A stretch of 64,000 nt of DNA from Polytrichum commune. Taxonomy: Eukaryota > Streptophyta > Polytrichopsida > Polytrichales > Polytrichaceae. The first letter of the stretch is position 1. Each line of letters starts with the position of its first letter. Positions 24,380 to 43,200 of the stretch are shown piece after piece. Location of the stretch: NCBI GenBank assembly GCA_950295325.1, contig OX485809.1:16120001-16184000 (forward strand), read 5' to 3'. The notes under the pieces were generated by a model, which saw only the letters and a list, made by a program, of their open reading frames with translations, was not told the origin of the DNA and searched no databases. The translations under genes were made by a program, and so were the position numbers.

Positions 24380-26118
24380 TATTTGTAGGCCGACGCCTAT
24401 CTTCTTGTTTTGTTGATTTGAAAAAGCTTGCGATACAATTTTACATGATAAGCTTTGGGAATGCCTCCAATGTTTTGGCATACTACTTTATTTACAACAA
24501 GCTATAAAAGCCATGTATATCATTATTTATGGAAAAGTGTGAATCAATGATGAAACACATGGTGAAGTAATGTTTGACATTGGTGTTAAGAAAGGATGTC
24601 CCCTTTCCCCCACGCGATTTGGCTTGTACATTAAAGAACTTGAAACATATTTGGACAAGATTGATGGGGATTCTCTAAGGTTTATTTGATATGGTGATTG
24701 CCATTCTTCTATATGTTGATGATGTTGTTCTAAACAAACTACACAAGTTTTGCACTTCTTCTAGCCTTGAAGTTAAACTATTTGGAACCATAATTATAAT
24801 CTTTGTCCCTTAACAAAAGGAAATTAAACCAAGAAGCATTTTACTTAGACAAGGACCAAATTGAGATAACAGGGGGCATTCACGGTTGAGGTATTATTTT
24901 TGGGACAAAGGACTTAAGGACTTAAGGAATAGTGAATTTCGGTGTTTATCATGATTTACTATTATTTGATCAATAAATTTTAAATAAATAAGTAGATAGT
25001 TCATAGGCTATATCAAGAAAGATATTATTTCTTATTAAATAATCACCAATAATAGAGAAATTTCTTATGAAATAAGTAGATAAGTCATAAAACTTGAAAA
25101 GGGGTCAAATGACTTGTTTGGGCCACATCAATGGCATTTTTTGCTATTTAGGTGTGCATTGGTGGTCAATTATTTCTTGTTTTGCATCTTGGTACCTTGG
25201 TATAAGTGTCATGTGTTCATTCATATAATTTTTTTTGTCCAATTCTAATACTAGACGTTCCTGTTAGGTGTGGCCGTGATTATATGTATTTTTGGCCATG
25301 TTTGGTGCCACATGTAAAGTTGGGCAATTGGTATTCAATACATTTTTGGTTCTGTTGGTACACACTTGAACGATGATTGTGAGGAAAAAAATTGGGATCG
25401 TTTCGATTAATTCTTGTTGTCCTTTTCATTCCTTGATCCTAAGGTGAACAATTAAGACAACACTCCTAAATGTCCTTTAAGGAATCAAAATGATATCTTA
25501 GATGCCCTATTCCTTCTAAATTAACTTTGTCGGTGTACTCAATATGGAGTATGAATTGTAGGTATGATCCAAAATATGCTTCACAATACAAATCTAAGCA
25601 TACCAAGCATGTGAAGTTATCTAAAAAAGTCCTTTTTCCGTTAGACACCCAAAAGTAGTACCCCAACTGTGAATGCCCCCAACACACAAACATAAATACA
25701 TTGGGATTGAGTTCTATTCACATGGTTACTTTGAGTCATCAAGTAAAAGGCAAACCTTGGCCACATTGGTACTTCACCTCAAACCATAGACTTGAATTGA
25801 AGCTAGATGGTGGTTGACTATCCCTAGCTACCTCTAGAGACAATAGATTATGCCACTTTTGCTCTTTTAATGTAGTTGAAAACAAGGCAAACTTTGTGTT
25901 GGAGTGTCCCCTATATTACCCCTTTAAAGATAAGTTTCCATCATTATTTGAGAATTGTTGTATTAGAGAGCCTCAAGTCTTTCTTTCAATTGAATCATGC
26001 AACTGACACTAGTCTCTATTTCACAGGAGGGTACCGCAGTCTACCACTCTATAGAATTTGTTGGCTTGAATCCATCATGATGTACTTTCAGTTAGCCCTT
26101 TGGTTTCCCGGACTCTAA
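24380..26118 (+). mobile_element. Decayed L1-type LINE: reverse transcriptase and zf-RVT remnants
   Basis: Plus-strand translations show, in order, a VDLKKA-like segment (about 24410), GVKKGCPLSPT (about 24581-24613) and the catalytic YVDD at 24712-24723, all standard in LINE reverse transcriptases. About 1 kb downstream, 25790-26118 carries RDNRLCHFCSF and VLECPLYYPFKDKF, the zf-RVT region. Order and strand agree with one LINE ORF2, but stops and frame changes break it many times, and the stretch between holds no motif. It is not functional. Confidence 0.65.
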
Positions 26119-26332: not shown

Positions 26333-26767
26333 GCCACATTAACAAAATACAAGAATATTTTCTTACCGTGGTTCCCAGTTGTGTTACCAAATAATCTCCA
26401 TTGGTTACTATTTTTTGAGCACATAGTCCAATCTCATTGTAACAAGTGCTAGATACAAGACTAGATGATGCAGTTCACAAAAATTGACACGTCAATTTAA
26501 GAAACTTGAAAATGGTTACTCCAAAGTTGCGTACCAGTGACAATGAGAACATTACTTCATGAAAACGGTTTGTTTGTTGAGCCCAAAGGTGAGTCACGAT
26601 GGAAACATTTCACCTGCTTTTGGCCATCATTTTTGCATTTCACTGACATGAACGAGCTCCAGGCAGGTGCTCCTGTGAACTGGTTGCCTAATCCGACTGG
26701 ACTACTATATTAGAGTAATTCCCTCAAGAACAGAACCCCAACGTCATGTTCATGGGACTCTTCCACA

Positions 26768-27262
26768 TTGGATCAATGTGGTTTGGTCAAACCTGCGGTT
26801 AAAACATGTTTTGTGACACAAGCGTCCCTGTTATTACTTGTACAACAATTGATATTTTACGCTTCCTCGGCACTCACAGGGTTGTATTTGGATCGGTTGC
26901 ATTTCAAACCTGTGGAGACACATTGGCTTTATGAATGCAATCTTTATGATCTTTGCTCAACTCAACATTTAGTACCAAATTATGGAAGGGGATGGCTTCT
27001 GGAACGGATGATGGCACAGAAGATGGCTCAAGAAGTGAAGCGGCTTACTCTAGATTCAACTACGACATGCTGTACAGGAGTTTATTGGCAGCCTGAACAA
27101 CAACATCCATGGGTTGCTGAACTCAAGCTTCCCCAAAACAAGAAGATGTGGATCGGTAACACCGACACCGAAGAAGAAGTTGCACAAGCATATGATAATT
27201 TGCGTTATGGTTTTGTTTTGATGCGGCTTAGTTTTGATGACGCTTCCAAACTCGTGGCGTAA
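26768..27262 (+). CDS. AP2/ERF-like DNA-binding domain protein, possibly a pseudogene
   Basis: The last third of this frame reads GVYWQPEQQHPWVAELKL, then KKMWIGNTDTEEE and QAYDNL, which follows the AP2 domain pattern (GV...W.AEI, ..WLGTF.T.EEAA.AYD). AP2 domains bind GC-rich or DRE-type DNA in plant transcription factors. Departures are notable: the usual Y-R before G-V is C-T, the F after G is replaced by N, and the C-terminal helix ends early at TAA 27260-27262. The N-terminal 100 residues match nothing I recognise, and no true ATG is evident at 26768. A spliced upstream exon could exist, but LINE remnants flank it. Decayed copy or divergent AP2 protein; the domain call is moderate, activity doubtful. 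Confidence 0.5.
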   Translation: MDQCGLVKPAVKTCFVTQASLLLLVQQLIFYASSALTGLYLDRLHFKPVETHWLYECNLYDLCSTQHLVPNYGRGWLLERMMAQKMAQEVKRLTLDSTTTCCTGVYWQPEQQHPWVAELKLPQNKKMWIGNTDTEEEVAQAYDNLRYGFVLMRLSFDDASKLVA

Positions 27263-28623
27263 GAAATATTAGAGTCAAAAATGTTTGTTGGATCACATAC
27301 AATCGATGATCTAACAATTTCCTATGCGCCTTTCGATAACATTGACTCGTGATGGATACCCAATTGTCAAGCAAGAGTCATGTTGACAAATCCTTCATTG
27401 AGCCAAGTGTTGAAAATGAATGAGTTTGTTGTTTCAAACTCAAAAACTCATTATATGTTGGATGGATCTTCAATATTGAAATTAGAGCACGCTCCCCTAG
27501 AGATAGGAACTTACATTTGCCACAAAAGTTTTTGAGAGCATGGATGTTGGGATGAAGTCATTACACGTGTTTGCAGATGACTTGCCTCTCATGGTTGATC
27601 GTGTCTTCACAAACGCAAAGGATGCACAAATGCAACCTTGTCTTTGACAGGCACCAATTGGTTTGGGACATGCTTTCCAAAACGTTCTATGTTTCATAAA
27701 GGATGTGCGATCCCAAATATTGATTGAAGCATGTTAGTTTGCAGGTGTGCAGTACTAGTAGGTTTTAAATGTGCCATCCAAGTTAATATGATTCTTATGT
27801 TTCAGATGCACAATCAAGATATGGTACAAAGATCGAGGATTTATCTTGAGTTTCTTGAATACCTCTGCATAAAAATCCAACCTTTTGTTGTTTTATGGAA
27901 TATTATGTGTGGTGTAGAATGTCATAAGTTGAGCATTACCAATACAATTCGATCATCTATAAATTGTGTATATCAAAAAAACGTGTCATTTTTGGTAAAA
28001 AGTAACTATCCACTTTGCCTTCAGGTTTGTCTTCCACAAGAACTTTTCAAAGTATTTAACACAAGTTGACTACTAAGTTATTTGCACAAATGAGACATCG
28101 CAATGCCCACCCCAACCTTGCAAGACCCCTCCACCAAATTTGAAAGGGAATTCGGGGAAGAGTATAGATGCCAGAGCAAACATCAACGGAACCTAACTGC
28201 ATTCAAGTAATCTATACAAACATTCTAAAGATTGTTGTCTGCGTATTCAAAAGGCTATGCATCTGAATCGACAGATTGCAGTCTGACTGCCATTATTTAT
28301 GTGGGTAAGGCGTTTCCTGGATCAGAACAGCAGCTGACAAGCACATTTGTCCCAAATTTGTACATACACCAAAATGTGGACCTACATGTACCAAAAATTG
28401 AACTAATTCAAGTGACCACCTTTAGAAGAATGTGAAAAAGATTTGCTTCTGGCAATCAAATAGCCACTAGTATATCTACAACCTCTTCATCCACGGCTAT
28501 ACCAAATCAATCTGTACACAATCCACAAGCACTCCATGGCCTGTCAATTCATGTGCAACCAGAAAACCTGGATTGCCAAAAAGTTCCACTTGACTTTTGG
28601 GCTCTTGACATGCAGTGCTGAAG
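27263..28623. other. Intergenic, no gene supported
   Basis: Short open frames on both strands have no domain. The stretch separates the AP2-like frame from the 3' end of the minus-strand R3H/G-patch gene, whose 3' UTR should occupy its right part. Confidence 0.5.
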
Positions 28624-31600
28624 CTATGTAGTTGGTGGTGGTGCATAGGCACCCAGTCCAAGAGATTTTGGACGCTTCACAGCTTCCAATGGATAAGCAA
28701 TACCTTGTCCATCCCTGCCAAGACCTTGGCCTTCAACAAAACCCATCTTTGACATCATACGAGACCCAAAACCCGTGGTATGAGCCTCAAAAGTGCCAAT
28801 TGGTACAGGGACTGTGGTTGTTGTTTTCAATTGTACTCCCGTGGCAGACTTGGGGACAGATGTTTCCCCTCTATCGGCTATACTAAAGGTGTCCACCTCG
28901 GTAGTTATGATTGTAGTTGCCTCCAAGCCAGGTGATGAAATTTCTTCATCATTACCAATTATCCCACTTGAGACAAAGGACATGGGCATGTTCGCATACT
29001 TGGCAGTTCTAGATTTCCCACCCCCACTTCTCTCCTTCGAAGCTTGTCCATGACCTTTTCAAGCACATGAAAAAAGATAGTCATCAACTGCTAAAATCCC
29101 ATCCTCGACATGGAGAACTTCAGTTTAGAACTAAACAGATCTTTTGTTCAAGTCTGGATTATAAAGCCACCAGCACAAGATGAACTGGATATAGTAATAT
29201 CATTTCAAATGTAGAGGGTCACCCACTAATGGCATACCTGATAAATCTCTCTTAGACCTGGACTTGTCTGAAGACCCTTCAAACAGCATCGTCTTCTGAT
29301 GCTTCCTACCACTCCCTTTTAGGTTGGGTCCCTGCATGCTTATGAAAGCTTTGCGAGCTGCTTTATTGAACTTCTTTGCCATCCAGCGATGTACCATTAT
29401 ATTTGCTCCTCCTTGACAAAGCATCTGAAACAAACCACAATTTTCCATTTACTATGTTGCAAAATGTAATGAAGTACCTAGTGAAAGAGCTTTGACATAG
29501 TCCATGGCCTTGTAAAGAGATACTCTGGCTCAAAAACTACTTTAGAAGTCTGACTCAACACTTGTTACCACTCAATAATCAGCAGATTACTCGCAAGAGA
29601 GCTTACAGAGGCCAGGCGGTATTTATCTGCACCCACTGGCAAGCTGGTATGTTGTGTGCGAGTCACAACAGTAAACCTAGTTGCACATAAACCACGTACA
29701 AAATCAACGGACTACACTCTCTGTAGTATTCTGTCCTTTAAAAATTTTGAGCTTACTCCATTCAGAAGCTTCATCAAAAGACGGACTACACCTACATCAA
29801 CACAAGATGACACGACCAATCTCATTTCCAAGTAACAAAGCAAAGAACACAGGAAAGAGCCTTGTACCTCTTCTTGCCTGATCCCTGACTGGCACTCATC
29901 AATCGATACATTCCTGCCATCTTATGAATCTGTTCAAAGTCAGCACCATTATTTCAGTACATTGACAAACAGCAGTGCAAAGACAACCAAAGAGAATGCT
30001 AAAGGACAGACTTCAGCAATGATAAAGGGTGTGAGTATACAAAGGCCCCCTGTTTAAACATTTTTGCTTCATGAGAGAAGTCACACTTGTCAAAGCTAGA
30101 GACATGACATTGACTACCCAAATTCCTACCTAATTCGATGTCAGCACAGAATCAATACCTTATTTATGGCTGCTGTTCATGTTGCTATTACAATGTCATG
30201 GTAAGTACTGGTTTACATACTACGAAAATCACATTGAACCTCAAACATGCAATATCCATCTAATTTTATTATTTCCACAGGCATTGTAAAGGTTGATATC
30301 AGGAGATTTGTGGGAAACACATGGCACAACATTTGATCTACCCAAAGGAAGATTGAGAATAAATAGGTGGACAAACCATCCATCAATTTCAACTTCAAGT
30401 ACCACATCAAGCTCAAATTTGTGTCAACATGCAATTTAAAACACAACACACAAGATTACAATTCTATTATGCTTCACAACAAGTTGACACGACCACTTTC
30501 AGAAGGCACGAGAACATTTACATAAATATGTCCGCAAATTCCAATGTGGAAACTGAAAATCTTAACACACATCTTGCACATTTCTTGTGTGAAACTTCAA
30601 TGTCATTTGGCTGGTGGTCAGGTGAAATTACATTGGGCTCCCATACCATGTGCATGGAATCTTTTGGGTCAATCCACATAAATGAAGAATTAACATCCTG
30701 AGGGGATTCGCACCTGAGCACGATCCCGGTCTTCCATGGGTGCAAAAGCATATATATCAGTGCCACGAACAACAATCTCTTCCAATGCCTGTACCACCAG
30801 AATGGACTTCTTGTAAAGCCAACAACATGCAAGAGGTAGGGTGAGAGGAAGGCCAGACAGGCATGCAAAGTTTCCACAGTAAATATATTAAAAAGAGTAC
30901 AAGGCAAGTAGCCAATGCAAGCAGAAATAATGGAACTTGGATAGGCAAAATGGAATCCAAATTTGATGGAGACACCTGGATTACATAAAGTGATGCATAT
31001 CATCAGATTCATGAGGTCAGGATCAGCACCTTATTTATGGCCTGCAAGTCAAGTCCACGAATTATCGCACATTCTCTATGTTTAGCAGCAATCATCTCCT
31101 TTCTCTCACGCTTTTTCTCTCCTACATAAATGTCCCACCTCTTGTTATCAGAAACCCTAGTGCAACTTGTAAGGTCCAAAACATTGATCAAAAAACTATT
31201 ATACCTTGAACAAAAAAGACTTGTTTGTGTTCAAACTAATGTAATTCTCCTTGACAAATCAAAATACTACAATTCATTGAAAAGTATGGAAAAATACCTA
31301 CAAATAACTTGGTTACATGATCAAAAAGCCAAGGTCGAGTGTAAGAAACTTACCAGGGACGCTTTTGGATTTCTTTTTGCTTTTGTGGACATTCATTGGC
31401 CAAGTCCCAGTCATCTTCTTTCCCTCACGTTTCTTCTCTCCTACATAAATGTCCCACCTCTTGTTATCAGAAACCCTAGTGCAACTTGTAAGGTCCAAAA
31501 CATTGATCAAAAAACTATTATACCTTGAACAACAAAGATATGTTTGTGTTCAAACTAATGTAATTCTCCTTGACAAATCACAATACTACAATTCTTTGAG

Positions 31601-34600
31601 AAGTATGGAAAAATACCTACAAATAACTTGGTTACATGATTAAAAAACCAAGGTCGAGTGTAAGAAACTTACCAAGGACACTTTTGGATTTCTTTTTGCT
31701 TTTGTGGACATTCATTGGCCAAGTCCCAATCATCTTCTTTCCCTCACGTTTCTTCTCTCCTACATAAATGTCCCACCTCTTGTTATCAGAAACCCTAGTG
31801 CAACTTGTAAGGTCCAAATCATTGATCAAAAAACTATTATACCTTGAACAACAAAAACCTGTTTGTGTTCAAACTAATGTAATTCTCCTTGACAAATCAA
31901 AATACTACAATTCTTTGAGAAGTATGGAAAAATACCTACAAATAACTTGGTTACATGATTAAAAAACCAAGGTCAAGTGTAAGAAACTTACCAGGGACGC
32001 TTTTGGATTTCTTTTTGCTTTTGTGGACATTCATTGGCCAAGTCCTAGTCATCTTCTTTCTCTCACGTTTCTTCTCTCCTACATAAATGTCCCACCTCTT
32101 GTTATCAGAAACCCTAGTGCAACTTGTAAGGTCCAAAACATTGATCAAAAAACTATTATACCTTGAACAACAAAGACATGTTTGTGTTCAAACTAATGTA
32201 ATTCTCCTTGACAAATCAAAAGTCTACAATTCATTGAGAAGTATGGAAAAATACCCACAAATGACTTGGTTTAACAAGCCAAGGTCAAGTGTAAGAAACT
32301 TACCAGGGACGCTTTTGGATTTCTTTTTGCTTTTGTGGACATTCATTGGGCAAGTCGCAGGTTGGCTAGATTTCCCATCCCCAGATCTTGATTGTTTCCC
32401 TGTGGCTGGAGTCTTAGGACTCTTATCTGGAGTATGAAAAACCAGAAATTGATATAAATGCCAGAGTTCCAGTAGTAGTCTTGAACTGAAAACAACTACA
32501 TGAAATTCCTTAATTCACGACTCTCACATGCCCAGGCTTGTGTAGGAACCTCTTTCTAACCGAGCAGCAGAATGTCACAAGGCCTTGTAAACCAAGACAC
32601 ACCAGGCATGAAGTTTGCATCCTCCAAAAGCTCAAACAGTTGGTCAACATCATCTTCGTCCTCTGAATTGTAATCCTCACTTAGACTATCATCCAAGTCT
32701 AGGTCTCTAATTCGTAGAGCAGGCCCTGTGTCACACCCGCCTTTTGCATCCACACTGTCTGTGAAAGCCCCTTCAAATAATAACTTTTCAGCCATATCCT
32801 CTAGCTCCGAATCCGAGTCGTCATCTGTCTCCATCACTTCCTTTCCTTTCATCTGCCGCCGTATCCTCCACATTCTCTCTGCTGAAATAATGAATAGCAA
32901 AATAAGAACCACACTCCTTATATCAGCAATTCATAACCTCTACACAACAACTCGAAGGCAGCTGATGTACGTTGCCAATGACACCAAATATAAGTACTAC
33001 AGGAAATCCCCCAAATTACACGCAGAACCAGAAAATTGGAGGGATTGAAAATGCAGCTTCTGCACATAAGCAACTTTGTGAGGTCAAATTTTGTGCCGAG
33101 AAATTCTCCTACAAATTAGTGAGTGTGACAATTAAGCAACTAACCAGGGGATGCATAATCACTTGAACTCAAGTCACCACCACTTTTGGCAGAGCTGTCA
33201 GTACTTGAATCTGTATCATCCTCCCAGCCTTGGATGACCATATCTTCAAGTGGTTCTTGCTCAAATAGCTTATCTTTCAACAGCCAGGTGGCATCTAATG
33301 GCCCACCATCAATTCCCACATTTGCTAGATAGTCCTCAGCCATTTCATCATCAATTTCTGAGTTGCTCGAATCTAATATACTTTCTTCTGAGTCACTACT
33401 AGCATTCTGTAGCCACTGCCCTCGTTGTTGTACTCCAGATTTCCGTCCAGCATCTTTCTTGCGCTTTGACTTGGAATTTTTACTTCCACTACCCCATTGT
33501 TTCTTCCCACTTGCAAAATCAAGTGCCAAGGATACATCTGGCTCTTCATCCAGCCCTTCATTTTCATCAGCACTGCCCTGGTCTGTCCATATTCTCACAC
33601 CTCCAATGCTCAAAACTCCACTACTCCTTTCTGTAGCTATTCCAATATCTCTTTCTTTCTTATTCCTCAGAGTAGGCCTGTTGCTCCTTTCAAATTCAAG
33701 GGTTTTTACTTCAAGGTGATTGGTTTGGCCCATCTCCACATACATGGCCTCTGTCACAGCTCTATCACTTTCTTTTCCAGATTCAGATATTCCTGCAGCA
33801 ACGGTACTTCTCAAATTCCTTGACTCAGAAGCATGATTGCCATTGTCCACAAAACCCAATCCTGTTGTCCTCATTTCAATATCCACGGGCTCGAATGCCT
33901 GCAAACAAAGGGGCAGAGGAAGTTGGATTGAGGACAGAGAAACACATGAGAAAGCCTTCACATGGTTGATGTGATGATGAATCCTCTTCCTTGTCCTCTT
34001 CAGTGTACAGTAAAACTTCATACCTTAAGTCACATTTGCAATTTTGCAATAATCTTTTTCATTTTGTTCAAGCAATTATCTTTTGTTTATCACCTTCAAG
34101 TACAACCTAACCAAGATAATACTAACTTAAGACGTGGTTATTGTTTATTTTATGTAGATTAGGGCCTTTTGGGGTGGTGGAAATTGCTGTGCAAGGGAGT
34201 TGAGAGAAGTTGAGGAATGGACAAGCAGGATTAGTTTCATTTGACAGGATTAGTTTCATTTTATGGTGCGCCCAAGGGAGATTCTAGGAACTCATTTTGG
34301 CAATGACTTGCCATCTGTAGGTTCGTCATTACCTCAGGCTTTGCAACGGACTGCCGAGTGGGATGTTTGGTATCGTGATGAGACTCTGCGTATCAATCAG
34401 GGACGACAAGGCCAACTCTATATCTTCACCAAGATGAGCTAGTCTATCCATTTACAGTCCTGACACGTTACTGTTCTGTGCTAATTTTTGGCAACACCTC
34501 CTTTCAATCAGGAAATGGTTTGTGTCCTTGTTGACTACTAAACAATGATCTGGAGAGTTCCAATTCTCAAGTGATGCCGCCATACCTTAGTGTGTCAGGG

Positions 34601-37600
34601 GGACCTCGGTAAGAGAACTAGCAGATTCTGCTGTTACACATTTAATTTTTCAATTCAATTCGTACAGTGGACACTGAATAACAAGAGAGAAGGAGGTTGA
34701 TGAATCAGCTAGACTTGGATGTTATATTAGTGAAGAACTACCAGTATATACGTTAGAATTGAGTAGTTCATCAAGGCTGTTATCAGTTTTATATTTTTGA
34801 GAGTGTAGCTCAAATATGCAAGAGTTCACTTATTTTTACAATGACAAAGAGGTCAGATTGCTTCAATAATAAGCTCAAATATTGGATGGTTCGGCAACAT
34901 TGCTTGCTACACTCATCAACTCAATGCTAGAGTACATTGCCTTCGGGAAAACATTGAATTTGTACTATTTTTGACTCAAAATAGAAAAATTGACATGTGT
35001 AAACCTTCCCAATCATGATTTTTGTAACTGAGTTCTCAATGTAAATCTGATGTGAGTGCGACACAGTTAGCTTTTGTGAAACTAAAGTTTCTCATTGTGC
35101 TTTTATGTTTCTTACATCCTTCTTATCTTCTGATTCAGGTCAACTGCTATATGTAAATAGAACTTTCTGGCCAATTGGAAGCAAACTCCAAGGAATTCTG
35201 AAATGTCCTTAGGTGGATAATGGATTGTGCCACAATTTATGTCCAAACAAGAGATCCATGGAAAATGACACTTTAGAATTGCACAAAGAAAGGACGAAAC
35301 CCTACCCCGACAATCGACCACCTACAACGCCAATTACTGTCACCAAAACCAAATCAACGCTCACGAGAACAACAAGAACCTATGGTATGTATCCAACCTC
35401 CGCAGAGATGCAAAAAAGTACAAATAAGCTGCAACACCATATCAAAAACGCGAGAGCGACGAACGACACCACACAACCCTACCCCGACAAACGATTTCCT
35501 ACCACGCCAATTCGAGGCCCGTAGATAAAAATTCGAGGCTCACCGGATAGCAATGCTCCCAGCGAGCACGCAGCCGTTGCAAACATGGGAGCAAAAGCGA
35601 GAGCGGTGGCAAGAAACGATGGGAAACTTGGCTATTGGCGATGGCGATGCTGCAAGCAAGGTGTCGAGGGCATGCATAGTGTGAAGGAAACGAGTGGCTA
35701 GTTCATAACTTGGATTGTAATATGGGGACTGTGGGGGAACGTAGGACGACGTGGTCGCCTTAGAGGGCGGCATTTCTGGACGGCACTTCAAGCCTCATCC
35801 TCGAACATATAGTGACAACTCATGACCATTGTACTACTAAATCATATGTGTAGGTTATTTGCATACACAATGCTAAGAACTGGGAATGTTAGTGGTTATA
35901 GACATTCAAACCTTTTGATGATGTTTACGATCCACGAAGACTTCAATTCGACCTTCAATAGCTGGCACAACAACTTCCATCTCTCTTGGCCCTGCTGCTC
36001 TTTCTTCCTTTGCCAACTGCAGAATGGGCCTCTGCAATAATACATGCAATCAAGGATTGACAACACACAATAACAAACCCAAAAAAGAACAAAATTCAAG
36101 TATATGTAGTCCACCATTCCAAAGTGACAGAACCCGCATACCGAAGTTCTTGTGGATTCTTCATTCCTGCTATTACTGTTCTCGTAGGAGAAGTTCACAG
36201 ACAAAAATGGATTTTCTGCACTTCTCATCACTTGCTCCCTGCCGCCTAAGCCCTGCCTACCATGGGAGCTTGGCTGTTTGGAACCTCCTGCAAGCCCTTC
36301 ATGTGTTCTCCCTCTTCTGCCAGTTGCTGCACAAATATTCTCGTAGAAAAAGTTCACAGACAAAAATGGATTTTCTGCACTTCTCATCACTTGCTCCCTG
36401 CCGCCTAAGCCCTGCCTACCACGGGAGTTTGGCTGTTTAGAACCTCCTGCAAGCCCTTCATGTGTTCTCCCTCTTCTGCCAGTTGCTGCACAAATATTCA
36501 CGTCCCCAGACTAAACCACTTGCCACCAATTCTGCATGTAATAAGGCCAATGAAGTGATCTTCATTGTCCACACTGTTATTTTTGCAAGGCTGTGAAGTG
36601 TCCAGAAAGGAGGGAGCTAAGAAGATTTATCCATTTATACCCAGAAAGAAACTGCATTGCTCAGTATATATATCATCAAAGAGCGCCTAATTGTAGTATT
36701 TTGATTCCAGAATCCACAAAACAATCTTTATTAATTGCAATGCCATGTGACTGCAAGCATCGCTGCAACTTTTCTCATACTGAACCCTATTTCGAGGTCT
36801 TTAAATCAAGTCTTCCGCATTTACATGCTTATGATGATCGTTCACTCAAAGATGGCAGAAAAGTGCACAAAATTGGTTGTTTCAAAATACACTTACAGCC
36901 AGCACGATTAAGAGGAGTGGTAACCTCCCAGTCGATTGGAGCTCCTCCAGCTACAAATCCAGTTTGTGGCACGCCCCCTACTCAGACAACGCCATAGCAA
37001 ATTATTTTCGTGGTAAATCCTAAAGGATCGCAACTGATCAGAGCAGCCACACTGTGAACCTTTGTCCTGCAGAAACACGCCAGATAGATCCGCAACTCTC
37101 CTTAAATTGCTGTGGACTCAAGTCAACCTCAATCAGCTCTCAGTCACGGCATAAGAGCATCCTCAGTCGGTCTAGGTAAAGCTCACTGCAAACCAAAACC
37201 TATCTTTTGACTGACCTAAAATTAGAAACTGAATTTACCATCATTAGAAGCGCACCTAAATAAACGTGAGATATTTCTCAAGAACAAAGAATTGTAAAAA
37301 TTTGACGTAGGTGAAATCCCTCATTGAAAACACCACATTTTCAAAATTTAGAGGGAGTGCACCAAATCTTGCTTTAAATGGAAAGATCCTCCCACACTCC
37401 CTCCAAATTTTTGACATTTAGAGGGAGTGTGGGAGGATCTATCCATTTTTAAGCAAGATTTGGTGCACTCCCTCTAAATTTTGAGCAATTTTAAGCAAGA
37501 TAGGTCTTGGTTTGCAGTGAGCTTTACCTAGACCAACTGAGGATGCTCTAAGGTAGACATGTCTTGAGTGGCCACTTTTCTGAGTGACGCTTCACACTGT

Positions 37601-39819
37601 GGCCGAATGTCGAGAGGCCGTCTATGGCCAAATTCCAAAGGCCGCAATATAATATAAAATGATTGATTTTTGAAGGAGGCGACGGACTCTCGAAGGAAGT
37701 TTGGATCAGACGGGAATGGAAATCCAAACTATGGTCGAGAGGCTGTCGATTTTTTTTCATTAAAAAATCAATCATTGACAAGATTTTGGTTGTTAGATTG
37801 AAGGGGTTATTTTGAGTAAGGAACAAGAAAACGGTAGAACCGTGAGGCTCTGTCCTTTGCTATGAAAGACTACAATTGTAGCTAATTACTTTGCTCATGC
37901 CAATCCATGGCTATTCACTATACCAAACCTTTCTTGAATTTGGTGCACCTTCTTTTCAAATATGGGTCAAGGATTGGAGCTACTCACTTATCACCCGAAA
38001 TTTTTAAAATAAATAATCAAGAACTGCCGAAATAACTATAATTAACTAGATTTCTTTCAATGCATTTTAGGGAGCACTTGTATATATCTATATATCTATA
38101 TCTATATATCTATATCTATATATCTATATCTATATATCTATATCTATATATCTATATCTATATATATATATATATAAACTATAGTTAACATCCACATTAC
38201 ATAAAGTGGACCAAAAGTAACAAGAACGAGTAACGTCCACGTGTGAACACAAAGTGGTTAGGAAATTTGCTCTTGAAACGAAGAAGTTGATGCATAGTCT
38301 TTGTCCTACAGACAGAGCCAATAAAGTGGGATGCTCCTTTGGGTTTGGACTTTGGACTTGGCCTTTGGAGGCTTCACACTATGGCCGTCCAAGTTGAGAG
38401 GCCATGGGAGTTCATGGCCAAAGGTTTGGACTTTGGGCTTGGCCTTTGGAGGCTTCACACTATGCCCGGCCGAAAGGCTCCACTTACTATATTTTATTGG
38501 CTATTTTTAGCTCATTTCTTTGGACTCTCAACAAAGTTTGGCCACTCAATCCCACGGCCTCTCGACTTGGACGGCCATAGTGTGAAGCGGCCCTGAGACT
38601 GAAGGCGTCCTATTGAAGATTTCAACACTCATATTTTTTTTAAGTTCTTGCAAATGTATGGAGGAGACAGCAAACGATCCAACACCAATTTGAAATTCAT
38701 GAAAAGTTGTTCTGAATTTCTAAAAATGGAATTCTCTGCCCATAAATTTAGTCACGCAGCCAGCCCCCCGGAAAATGCTCTCATAACTTGAAGTACACTC
38801 CCTACCACTCTCACTCCCATGTTGAGCCACACATGTCACGTATTTTGGGTGCTCATTCACCCCATACAAGAAACTTCTGTGATTGGTGAGTGCATCCACC
38901 TTCAAATCGTGTGACAAGCCTTCATGAAAATAGTTCCATGGTCGAACTAATATGGCCACATACCAGGTTGGTTACGATTTGGAAAGATACACACTAAAGT
39001 AGATAGTCCAATATCGAGTTGTTAGATTAAGAAACAAGTGTAGTAACAAGCCTTCGTGAATTTAGTTGCATGGTAGAGCTAATATAGTCATATTCTAGAT
39101 TGAATACAATTTGACAAAGTGAGCGACAACCATCATCAGAGGTGTTGGATTAAAACACGTCGACCTTATATGTCTCTACGCGCTGAAGCACCACGGGCCT
39201 TGGCTTGGTGGTTAGGGCTCATGGCCCCCAATGAGGAGGTTGTGGGTTCTATTCCCCATGCCGGCGTGGTGCTCACCACCTTAGTCCACCCAACTATGGT
39301 GGGGGGTCCTTGGACCTTGTTGTATGGGTACCTCAAAGCCCTTTGGGGGGATACCATGTCCGGTATCTTCAAGGCACGAGTGGCTAGCTAGGAACTAGTC
39401 TGGTGTGTCACTATAGTGCCCATCCTCGAAAGGGGAGAGTAGTATTTGTCCCAATGTCCCCTTGTCCAGTGGGCATCGGGTCATTGACATTACGAACGGA
39501 CACAATGTTCACGCCAACCCCTTGCTAAAAAGGGACCGGAGTTTCTATCTATCTTTCTATCTATCTATCTCTACGAGCAAGTAGAGTACAATTTAGGTTG
39601 CCAGCCAAGATGACAAATAGACTAGAATCAAATCGAGACCTTACCTTGCCCAGATTGTCTTCCTTCTCGACCTCGACCTCGACCTCGACCTCCTCCTCTG
39701 CCACAACTTTTCCCTCTGCCTCTGCCACTACTCCCATCTCCATGCTCTTGAATTCCATGGCTTCCCCCACCACTACTACCCCCTCGGCCCCTGCCTCCAC
39801 CCCGCCCCTGCCTTCCCAT
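28624..39819 (-). CDS. R3H and G-patch domain protein (plant SQS1-like / D111-G-patch family)
   Basis: Predicted nuclear RNA-binding protein; relatives act in pre-mRNA splicing or ribosome biogenesis as helicase-activating G-patch factors. Fifteen exons: 39645-39819, 36142-36485, 35912-36031, 33145-33898, 32603-32881, 32304-32426, 31992-32078, 31673-31759, 31354-31440, 31030-31121, 30714-30788, 29868-29929, 29607-29676, 29238-29424, 28624-29054; 2973 nt, 990 residues, phases consistent. Exon 1 encodes an RGG-type Gly/Arg tract. Exon 2 holds a 53-residue repeat twice. Exons 4-5 are acidic and serine-rich. Exons 6-9 are Lys-rich (KSKKKSKS), a likely nuclear localisation region. Exons 10-13 form the R3H domain (GLDLQAIN, YAFAPM, SGKKRFTVVTRT). 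Exon 15 carries YANMPMSFVSSG and the G-patch GFGSRMMSKMGF...GLG at about residues 942-983. Exons 4-15 are well supported; exon 3 boundaries (donor GTTTGA) and the long intron 1 are weaker. Confidence 0.82.
31095..32360 (-). repeat. 319-bp tandem array carrying duplicated exons 6-10 of the R3H/G-patch gene
   Basis: Near-identical units step by exactly 319 bases (exon edges 32078, 31759, 31440, 31121). Each full unit holds an 87-nt exon plus a 232-nt intron with intact acceptor (TTTATGTAG) and donor (GTAAGT). Exons 7, 8 and 9 start like exon 10 (EKKRE) and end like exon 6 (MNVHKSKKKSKSV), so the duplicated block ran from inside exon 6 to inside exon 10 and its junctions created hybrid exons. 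Entry and exit phase are identical, so any number of copies keeps the frame. High identity of the introns indicates recent duplication or conversion. Confidence 0.9.
35213..35800. other. Unusual segment in intron 3 of the R3H/G-patch gene
   Basis: A 'aaccctaccccgacaa' block occurs twice (35300 and 35475), each followed by a 'c.acgccaatt' string, a partial tandem duplication. A minus-strand open frame at 35540-35767 starts MPPSKATTSSYVPPQS and ends at a possible donor (GTGAGC), so it could be an alternative or nested first exon; no family is recognised and its downstream partner was not found. Confidence 0.3.
36181..36498 (-). repeat. Two tandem 159-bp copies within exon 2 of the R3H/G-patch gene
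   Basis: Copies occupy 36340-36498 and 36181-36339 and differ at only a few bases. Each encodes the same 53 residues (GRRGRTHEGLAGGSKQP... NPFLSVNF). The copied unit includes the original intron end GAATATTTGTGCAG, so a second potential acceptor lies inside the exon, in the same phase as the first. Confidence 0.9.
37155..37548. mobile_element. Harbinger/Tourist-like MITE with 3-bp TAA duplication
   Basis: Ends GAGCATCCTCAG (37155) and its complement (to 37548) are flanked by TAA on both sides (37152-37154, 37549-37551), the TWA-type duplication of PIF/Harbinger elements. The inverted repeats are long: the outer arms run about 50 bases, and an inner pair (about 37340-37400 and 37415-37485, 'agagggagtg..gcacc') is also complementary, so the whole 394 bp can fold into a hairpin. 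It lies in intron 1 of the R3H/G-patch gene and has no coding capacity. Confidence 0.8.
37590..37810. repeat. Inverted-repeat element related to 38371-38588
   Basis: Carries 'cttcacactgtggccg' and 'gtcgagaggcc' blocks resembling the arm sequence of the element at 38371-38588, plus a weaker complementary half ('ggtcgagaggctg', 'aaaaaatcaatcatt' against 'aatgattgatttttgaa'). Probably a diverged member of the same non-autonomous family. Ends not determined. Confidence 0.5.
37822..38326 (+). repeat. Dispersed repeat, copy 2 (copy 1 at 3617-4027)
   Basis: Shares start 'aacaagaaaacggtagaacc' and end 'gtcctacagacagagcc' with 3617-4027. It has been lengthened by a TATATC microsatellite at 38080-38176. 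Lies in intron 1 of the R3H/G-patch gene. Confidence 0.65.
38080..38176. repeat. TATATC/TATC microsatellite
   Basis: About 95 bases of alternating 'tatatc' and 'tatatatc' units ending in pure TA. Simple repeat expanded within the dispersed repeat 37822-38326. Confidence 0.9.
38371..38588. mobile_element. MITE-like element with 39-bp inverted repeats
   Basis: Arms 38371-38409 (GCTTCACACTATGGCCG...) and 38550-38588 (complement) match along 39 bases with few mismatches. The arm motif recurs within the element at about 38450 and in the related element 37590-37810. Flanking target duplication was not identified, so the superfamily is open. Confidence 0.6.
39181..39567 (+). mobile_element. tRNA-derived SINE
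   Basis: Near the 5' end are RNA polymerase III promoter boxes: A box TGGCTTGGTGG at 39201-39211 and B box GGTTCTATTCC at 39245-39255, each one mismatch from consensus and spaced as in tRNA genes. The body is unrelated to tRNA, and the 3' end is a TATC-type simple tail (39544-39567). An 8-base direct repeat TCTCTACG flanks the element (39173-39180 and 39568-39575), consistent with LINE-mediated insertion. It sits upstream of exon 2, in intron 1 of the R3H/G-patch gene. Confidence 0.75.
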
Positions 39820-39941
39820 TTCTCCTCTTCAATCTCAACAATCATCGACAGCACCAACAACAACAACGAGGAGGAGGATACTAATTAAAATGTAAGAACT
39901 CTCGCCAAATGTGTGCCCACGAGAGACCAAAAAACGCTAAT

Positions 39942-40229: not shown

Positions 40230-43200
40230 ACACGATTTGGCCCTTCAAAATGTACCTCTTTCAGAACAACCGTTTAAAACGCAACCCCAGATTGAAAATG
40301 AAGACGTCACTTGAAGTCCTCAATATAATATGCCCGCCACAAGAACCAACAAGCCTAGGGTATGTCACGACAAGAAATTGGCGGGGATTCGTGGCACTCA
40401 TGTATTTTCATTAGTGAGAGTTCATTCATCTTTGCGGATGAGATGAATCACTTTAGACACTACCTCACGTTGTCGGCTCCTTGTCTCAAGGGTTTCAAAA
40501 ATACCAAGTTTTAGTAGTTCTAAATGATCCTAGTCTAATCTAATACTTAAGGCAATAATACAAAGGGGGTTAGATAAAATAAAAATGCCTCATATAGAAA
40601 CAAGTGGGTGCATCATGCGTTGCCAACCTATGATTTACCAGTCTGGTTATTTTTAAGAAATTAATATGGGTGGACATTAAATATCCCCTCACGAACTTTC
40701 GGGGGTGTCAAATCCAAGCTAGGGCAACCCTCGAAAGAAATTTCTGAACCCAATTGAAAATTGTTGCCCATCCCGCCCAACTTCGAAAAAAACATTGCCC
40801 TTGCATTCTTGAAGGCCGCTTGACTACAAATCCCATATTGAGTGCACTTCACTTCAAGGTCTAAAATCCAATATATATGTGCACTTCCAATTAGTGAATA
40901 AGCAATTGATTGGGATTTCATTCCGGAAGTGAAACCATCAATGAAGCACGTAATTAACTTGGAGGTCAAAAACATTACAAAATCCTCAATAACATTGAGG
41001 CACGGGTAGATCACTCCATTGTCAAGTTGAACATCACGTGCGACCAAAAAAAATCTTCTTTTGGTAAGTTGCACCACCAAAATGGGTCAAAATTTTATCA
41101 AATTTTTTTCATGAGTAGATATACACAGTACCTATGACATACTTAAAAATGGTAACGAAATTTGATGATTTGTTTTTTTCATAAAACATACCGTTTCTAA
41201 CTAGAATGACACATAATTGAACTAAAACAATTACTAAAAAAAATAAAGATGACTAAAAATTTCAGAAAACTATTCAAAAGCTACTATCAATGGTTATGTA
41301 TATGTAGAAAAAAAATCATAAATTTTAAAATTATATATGGCATGTAATATAGGGGTAGCAAACTTTGTCCGCACGTGGTGTTCAATTTGACAAGGAGTGA
41401 TCTACCCGTGCATTGAGGTTATAATTTTGTGATTTAAAACTATCTTTGTCATCCTAATGATAGATTAGTGCAAGTGTTCATAAAATGACCAAAATTAAAC
41501 AATGAACATAGAATATATATAAAACATACAACACAAATTATATAAAAATCAATCTTATTTTTTAGGTAATATAATATGAGCTATAAATAAATGATATGTT
41601 ATTTGGAATTAGACTTGTGGGACAACGTTATGGATGGGGTATACTCATAAAATCATAAGTTTATGACTATAGCCTATTTGAAATATTGTAATATTTTATC
41701 CTCATCAAATATTGTATCATCTTTAAATTCACATGATATATATTAATTATTTTAAAAGAAAAAAATTATTATTATTATTATTATTGAATTTATTTTTGAG
41801 TTCACCAATTTACCATAAGTTGATATATATTATTTTGACATATTACAAAAGTTTGAGCAATCACACCCGCGCAAAATAAATGAATTATGAACAAAAAAAA
41901 TGCCTATGACAACACATCATTATTATATATTGCACACGTTGATATCTTGCGATATTTATCAAAATAACCATGTGGAATTCAAAGCCACATCATGGCCTTG
42001 GAAACAACTTATGGGAGGTTAGAAAATAGGCTTAGAGCATCCAATGCCACATCGTTGCCTCTTGCCAACTAATTGATATTTACAAAATAGCTAGTAATTC
42101 ACAATAGCTATGAGGGAGAAAATAGGTCTTACATGTCAACTCAGAGATGTTTCACTAAAATGAGCTCCATCCGAGCTTCTTGATGGACTCATTCGATTTT
42201 TGTTACCGGATGACTTTACTTGAGTGCCACGAATCCCTGGCCCCCCCAAATGCCTTACTACTCACCTATCTTACCATCGGTTTCTGTTAATGCAACTCCT
42301 CGTGCCCTCATAGCTAATATTAAAAAGCAACCAATCACAAGGGTGGGAGGCGACATTTTTAAAGGTTTTATATTTTTGCCTCATGTTTAGGTACTGATGG
42401 GAGGGTCGGTGCTTGAGGCTTAAAACCTCCACTTTTAATCCATGCCACATCATTTGCCAACTAGGCTCGGCACTAGCTAATGTCGATGGTGTGAAGGCCG
42501 GATTGTTAGAACAAACTTTTAGTCTTGGCTAAAGTCAGGTGGGAAGGGGGCATAAGGCTTTAAAACTTTTAGTATCCATATTGCAATCCGTTGGGATCAA
42601 TGTTCAAGATTAAAGCCCTTTGTATGAGTTTCATTTCGAAGGGCTATCAAATTTTAGTCTTTCAGCTGAAGGGTTGGTTCAAATCCAAGACGTCAATCCA
42701 AGAATATAGAATTGAAATACAAAATTCATATTAAAGTTGTGCATGAATCATATGGTACATGTCTCTCGTATAATGTGAAGAATAAAGAATCAACCATCTA
42801 ACTCCATTTCTTGTGGGAAGGGGCATTATACTTGGGGCCACTTTATACTAAAAGGGCCACTTTACACTTGGGGTCGGATTAAGGGCCGGCCCAAACTCCC
42901 ATAATTTGGGTCAATAGGATCGCTCGGTTTCGTCAAATTTGGCTCTCAATGGCTTTATACTATGAGTTGGTCCAAACACTCACTCATCCCATGTGGTGTC
43001 CTAGGTGGCACAATTTTGGTGTTAAATCATTGGGCCGGCTTGAAGAAATCGAGACGAGCTTTTCCTCAGCCTGGACTCTCAACATGGGCCGGATTGGGTT
43101 CATCCATTGGATTGGGCTCATCTCTACCATTAATCTTTAGAAGGCAAATACTTCTCCTCTCCACTCCTCTAATAATGCAATAATTAGCATAAATATGATT

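Follow-up and report, generated by a model that had tools for sequence, protein, structure and literature searches.

The locus described here raises the question of how a gene can acquire exons composed of pieces of two others and still keep its splice signals and reading frame. It belongs to the genome of Polytrichum commune (408 Mb, the seven largest contigs measuring 42-78 Mb) and lies within the window C7:16120001-16184000, i.e., the whole 64,000-nt stretch of DNA that was analysed; positions given below without a contig name refer to this window. The host gene (28624-39819, minus strand) encodes an R3H/G-patch RNA-processing protein and comprises 15 coding exons with a 990-aa open frame (990 codons, zero stops), all introns of the model being canonical GT-AG. 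In the C7 protein, Pfam places an R3H domain at aa 711-768 (1e-9), followed by a C-terminal G-patch at aa 940-983 (4e-17), both above the gathering cut-off; sequence matches to solved structures are confined to the G-patch stretch.

The same order, R3H and then a C-terminal G-patch, is found in yeast Sqs1/Pfa1, a cofactor of Prp43 (PMC13111387, PMC5767255). Judging from the domain order and the papers on the yeast protein, the C7 product most likely serves a Prp43-type helicase as a Sqs1/Pfa1-like G-patch cofactor, putatively acting as its activator in ribosome biogenesis or splicing. Unlike its yeast counterpart, the plant protein has a long Gly/Arg-rich N-terminus, and the C7 copy also carries extra basic modules. 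Near 27 kb of the window, an AP2-like stretch with in-frame stops was also observed.

The extra modules are encoded by an array situated between exons 6 and 10, where four in-register copies follow one another at spacings of 319, 319 and 319 bp; TRF delimits the repeat at 31092-32360 (period 319, 4.0 copies, 95% matches, score 2272). A unit begins 54 nt before the end of exon 6, spans the 232-nt intron and runs 33 nt into exon 10, so that 87 exonic and 232 intronic nucleotides add up to the period. On the minus strand, the array opens with exon 6 (32304-32426; 123 nt, phase 1-1), which encodes DKSPKTPATG...PMNVHKSKKKSKSVP and has an undivided counterpart at C4:39782712-39782834; the part of it recurring in the hybrids is the 3' 54 nt, 32304-32357. 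There follow, on the same strand, intron copy 1 (32079-32303; 225 nt because of a 7-nt deletion; of the four copies, the one closest to the ancestral state), hybrid exon H7 (31992-32078; GEKKRERKKMTRTWPMNVHKSKKKSKSVP), intron copy 2 (31760-31991), hybrid exon H8 (31673-31759; GEKKREGKKMIGTWPMNVHKSKKKSKSVL), intron copy 3 (31441-31672), hybrid exon H9 (31354-31440; GEKKREGKKMTGTWPMNVHKSKKKSKSVP) and intron copy 4 (31122-31353), the latter three introns being 232 nt long. The array closes with exon 10 (31030-31121, minus strand; 92 nt), which leads into the R3H domain and shares its 5' 33 nt (31089-31121) with the hybrids. Each hybrid exon is 87 nt long, fuses the 33-nt start of exon 10 to the 54-nt end of exon 6, and is entered and left in phase 1. 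The preliminary description had recognized exons 7-9 as in-frame hybrids of 87 nt and phase 1-1, exon-10-like at the 5' side and exon-6-like at the 3' side, recurring every 319 bases with intact splice sites; this description is exact to the base at its outer coordinates (31030-32426).

The same acceptor and donor motifs are present in all units. Acceptors read ATGTAG ahead of GAGAGA throughout, and donors read C(C/T)TG ahead of GTAAGTTTC, as at exons 10 and 6, respectively. All of them derive by copying from the donor of exon 6 or the acceptor of exon 10, and the number of new splice sites is zero. Retention of any array intron would introduce a stop within 14-27 codons. The hybrid exons are presumably spliced into the mRNA.

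Short tandem arrays are frequent sites of assembly error, and a single unit falsely multiplied by the assembler would yield a similar picture. Such an artefact is extremely unlikely here, because every unit possesses private differences: 26 columns vary among the four units (pairwise differences of 2.8-5.5%), and intron copy 1 has a 7-nt deletion of its own. Duplication of reads would have produced identical copies, and a mixture of two haplotypes cannot make four distinct units.

The state preceding the array is documented by a second copy of the whole gene in the same genome (C4:39777800-39786084), modelled with 12 coding exons and 857 aa. A genome-wide search found the array at the C7 locus only and a single-unit copy on C4 (C4:39782450-39782834), where a single 232-nt intron lies between a single exon 6 and a single exon 10 and hybrids are absent. 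Thus, the ancestral exon 6 - intron - exon 10 structure, proposed earlier to be sought in related species, turned up in a paralogue within the same genome, and its unduplicated form agrees with the suggestion of a tandem duplication ending inside two neighbouring exons. Since C4 keeps the undivided exon 6 - intron - exon 10, the direction of the change appears clear: C7 would have gained units through a 319-bp tandem duplication with breakpoints inside both exons.

DNA homology between the two loci extends over 26475-39841 (an unstranded feature) and takes in the whole gene with its introns and 2.1 kb past the stop, interrupted by insertions in introns 1 and 3; hence, the pair represents a gene copy made at the DNA level. 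A retrocopy origin of the C7 gene was ruled out, the introns and 2.1 kb of downstream DNA being common to both copies. A third paralogue that could serve as an outgroup was not found in the same genome, the remaining matches reaching the G-patch only. High-copy repeats flank the duplicated segment on both sides (40378-40900 and 25400-25682), each with at least nearly 40 copies among the matches listed, mostly 94-99% identical. Upstream, the homology ends 22 nt before the ATG (39820-39841), and the C4 sequence there follows CAG, a possible acceptor of a 5'UTR intron; the promoter and first exon that the gene originally had may therefore be missing from the C7 copy.

The opposite polarity, i.e., an array ancestral to both gene copies from which C4 lost units by unequal crossing-over, deserves consideration, as an in-register deletion gives back exactly exon 6 - intron - exon 10. 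It is nonetheless very improbable: the intron copies of C7 are 2.6-4.4% apart and thus closer to each other than the introns of C7 are to those of C4 (6.9%), and at seven sites the four C7 units agree with one another and differ from C4.

The gain of units in C7, the preferred reading, is also recorded at the junctions. Exon 10 reads ATGATTG before CTGCC, and exon 6 reads CAACCTG before GGACTTGG; in the hybrids, ATGA(T/C)T(G/A) directly precedes GGACTTGG. This is a clean join with 0-2 bp of common sequence, a form that we regard as the trace left by non-homologous tandem duplication. C4 has GAGTG where exon 6 of C7 has GAATG, and all hybrids carry GAATG. Introns 2-4 have common derived states missing from intron 1 and from C4; therefore, the first split parted intron 1 from the ancestor of the others, and the array probably grew stepwise. 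Gene conversion among the units is too weakly indicated to be claimed (longest invariant run 66 bp, P = 0.046).

Taken together, the following course of events is very probable. The starting point would be an older copy of the gene, ordinary in structure, in which one 232-nt intron separated exon 6 from exon 10. A 319-bp tandem duplication would then have run from exon to exon, with its ends 54 nt before the exon 6 donor and 33 nt after the exon 10 acceptor. Each added unit would thereby contribute a further exon; its splice sites would be native, since acceptor and donor come along with the duplicated intron, and the frame would be kept, since the two exonic parts together make 87 nt (29 codons). 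Further growth, from one extra unit to three, would most likely have come about through unequal exchange in register. As a result, the protein would have gained three strongly basic (+8 to +10) and probably unstructured modules of ~29 residues each between the acidic region and the R3H domain.

The age of the array can be approached through its introns, which differ pairwise by 2.6-4.4%. In the eight alignable introns outside the array, C7 and C4 diverge by 6.6% (6.9% corrected), which places the first duplication at ~0.66 of the paralogue divergence (95% bootstrap range 0.33-1.07) and the later ones at ~0.50 (95% range 0.22-0.86). Common plant rates amount to 0.65-1.3e-8 per site per year, and at these rates a divergence of 3.5-4.6% would correspond to an array age of about 1.3-3.5 million years. 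The "very recent" origin and the "near-identity" of introns stated in the preliminary description do not hold: the array introns are 95.6-97.4% identical, and their divergence reaches about half to two thirds of that between the gene copies. By itself, such an age gives no reason to expect copy-number variation within the species. We consider it improbable that this exon cassette is live and variable in copy number, with more 319-bp units in some individuals than in others and with transcripts that contain varying numbers of modules; if it were, the locus would offer a helicase cofactor in variants of different length, all of them in frame.

An alternative view of the C7 copy is that it represents a decaying duplicate which, released from constraint, gathers internal duplications and intron insertions and makes no protein. 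The copy does harbour two internal tandem duplications, a 30-nt deletion in exon 14 and several kb of intron insertions; its homology to C4 is lost no more than 22 nt before the ATG, and the dN/dS of 0.52 is fairly high. Decay is nevertheless rather unlikely in view of the 990 codons without a stop or frameshift and of the splice sites, R3H and G-patch, which are all intact. The length differences between the C7 and C4 coding sequences (3, 6, 159, 30 and 3 x 87) are all multiples of 3, whereas 8 of the 11 indels in the eight compared introns are not. In the pairwise comparison of C7 with C4, which takes both branches together, dN is 0.0485 and dS 0.0934, and the resulting dN/dS (0.52) is below 1 (Fisher p = 0.0003). 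For most of its existence, the C7 gene copy has probably encoded a protein; a relaxed constraint is compatible with its two internal duplications and the large insertions in its introns.

The second of these duplications (36179-36503, minus strand) is an in-frame tandem repeat of 159 bp x 2, independent of the array and absent from C4, that duplicates the exon-2 acceptor together with exon sequence. The two acceptors precede 36485 and 36326, and either keeps the frame, giving an exon 2 of 344 or 185 nt; C4 has the 185-nt form only. Other structural differences from C4 include a ~394-bp insertion in intron 1 (37152-37551) that C4 lacks and that, carrying long terminal inverted repeats (GAGCATCCTCAGT...) accompanied by a TAA target duplication, is by its features a putative Harbinger/Tourist-like MITE; an insertion of ~1.85 kb relative to C4 in intron 3 (33954-35803); and exon 14 (29238-29424), shorter by 30 nt (10 codons, in frame) than in C4, where the extra sequence encodes a SHRALTGEDR-like stretch.

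What the modules contribute to the protein is a separate matter. Each hybrid exon encodes 29 residues (e.g., GEKKRERKKMTRTWPMNVHKSKKKSKSVP) with a net charge of +8 to +10, located between the acidic stretch and the R3H domain. The Lys-rich KSKKKSKS module, earlier described as an addition made by the array, is indeed added in three copies before the R3H domain, but the motif itself was not introduced in this way, one being already present in exon 6. H7-H9 differ pairwise at 2-5 of 87 nt, which makes 10 differences in 3 x 87 nt of pairwise comparison, eight of the ten differing codon pairs involving an amino-acid change. Since the exons diverge as fast as the array introns, and mostly by amino-acid-changing substitutions, selection on the module sequence is not indicated.

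One could suppose that the modules are functional cassettes, the regulated inclusion of zero to three of which tunes nuclear/nucleolar targeting or R3H-adjacent RNA binding. The uniform 87 nt and phase 1-1, keeping any subset in frame, would suit such a role, as would the charge of +8 to +10 per module and the invariance, across all copies and C4, of the sequence running from GTCCAC to AAAAG. At the same time, the same splice signals in every unit predict constitutive use over regulation, and the exons have accumulated differences at the intron pace, most of them altering amino acids, which makes this role quite improbable. The modules look close to neutral, a specific benefit not being supported by the data; we read them as a tolerated basic linker, which would be constitutively included.

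The locus renders the growth of exon number readable, with breakpoints placed within about 2 bp and stepwise growth traced by common substitutions, and it illustrates that exons with intact splice signals and an unchanged frame can result even when both ends of a duplication fall inside exons. The literature on chimeric exons retrieved by our search deals mostly with clinical and cancer cases of intragenic duplication. Among plants, the calmodulin-like gene TOUCH3 (TCH3) of Arabidopsis has repeated units that carry EF-hand domains. According to Knowles and McLysaght (2006), as related in PMC4974935, the internal tandem duplications of TCH3 took in an existing intron in full together with the exonic sequence flanking it on either side, increasing the intron number with zero new splice sites. 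Likewise, the 319-bp unit of C7 has a whole intron and parts of both flanking exons; unlike the EF-hand units, it is 319 bp long, carries a low-complexity basic segment instead of a domain, and is accompanied by four intron copies.

Segmental within-gene duplications holding entire introns are attributed to Gao and Lynch (2009) in PMC4974935 and PMC3443670, with plants among the hosts. As far as that set is presented there, the C7 array resembles its members in that exons were added through duplication within the gene, entire introns included, and differs from the set in being a single well-resolved case with the pre-duplication counterpart in the same genome. The array thus seems to fit the known TCH3 / Gao-Lynch kind of internal tandem duplication. 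The earlier statement that new exons arose at duplication junctions was right, and the mechanism is one already documented, as the account in PMC4974935 citing TOUCH3 and Gao and Lynch (2009) indicates; for this reason, the array is of value as an example and as a system for testing how faithfully near-identical exons are spliced, the phenomenon itself not being new. Notable in this new member are the four intron copies and the ancestor-like counterpart in the same genome. Finally, PMC4974935 separates the duplication of existing introns from de novo intron creation. As in intron creation by tandem duplication, the exon-intron structure of the C7 gene was changed via inherited signals; unlike that process, in which new splice sites are made, the array copies existing sites and introns and hence represents intron propagation.
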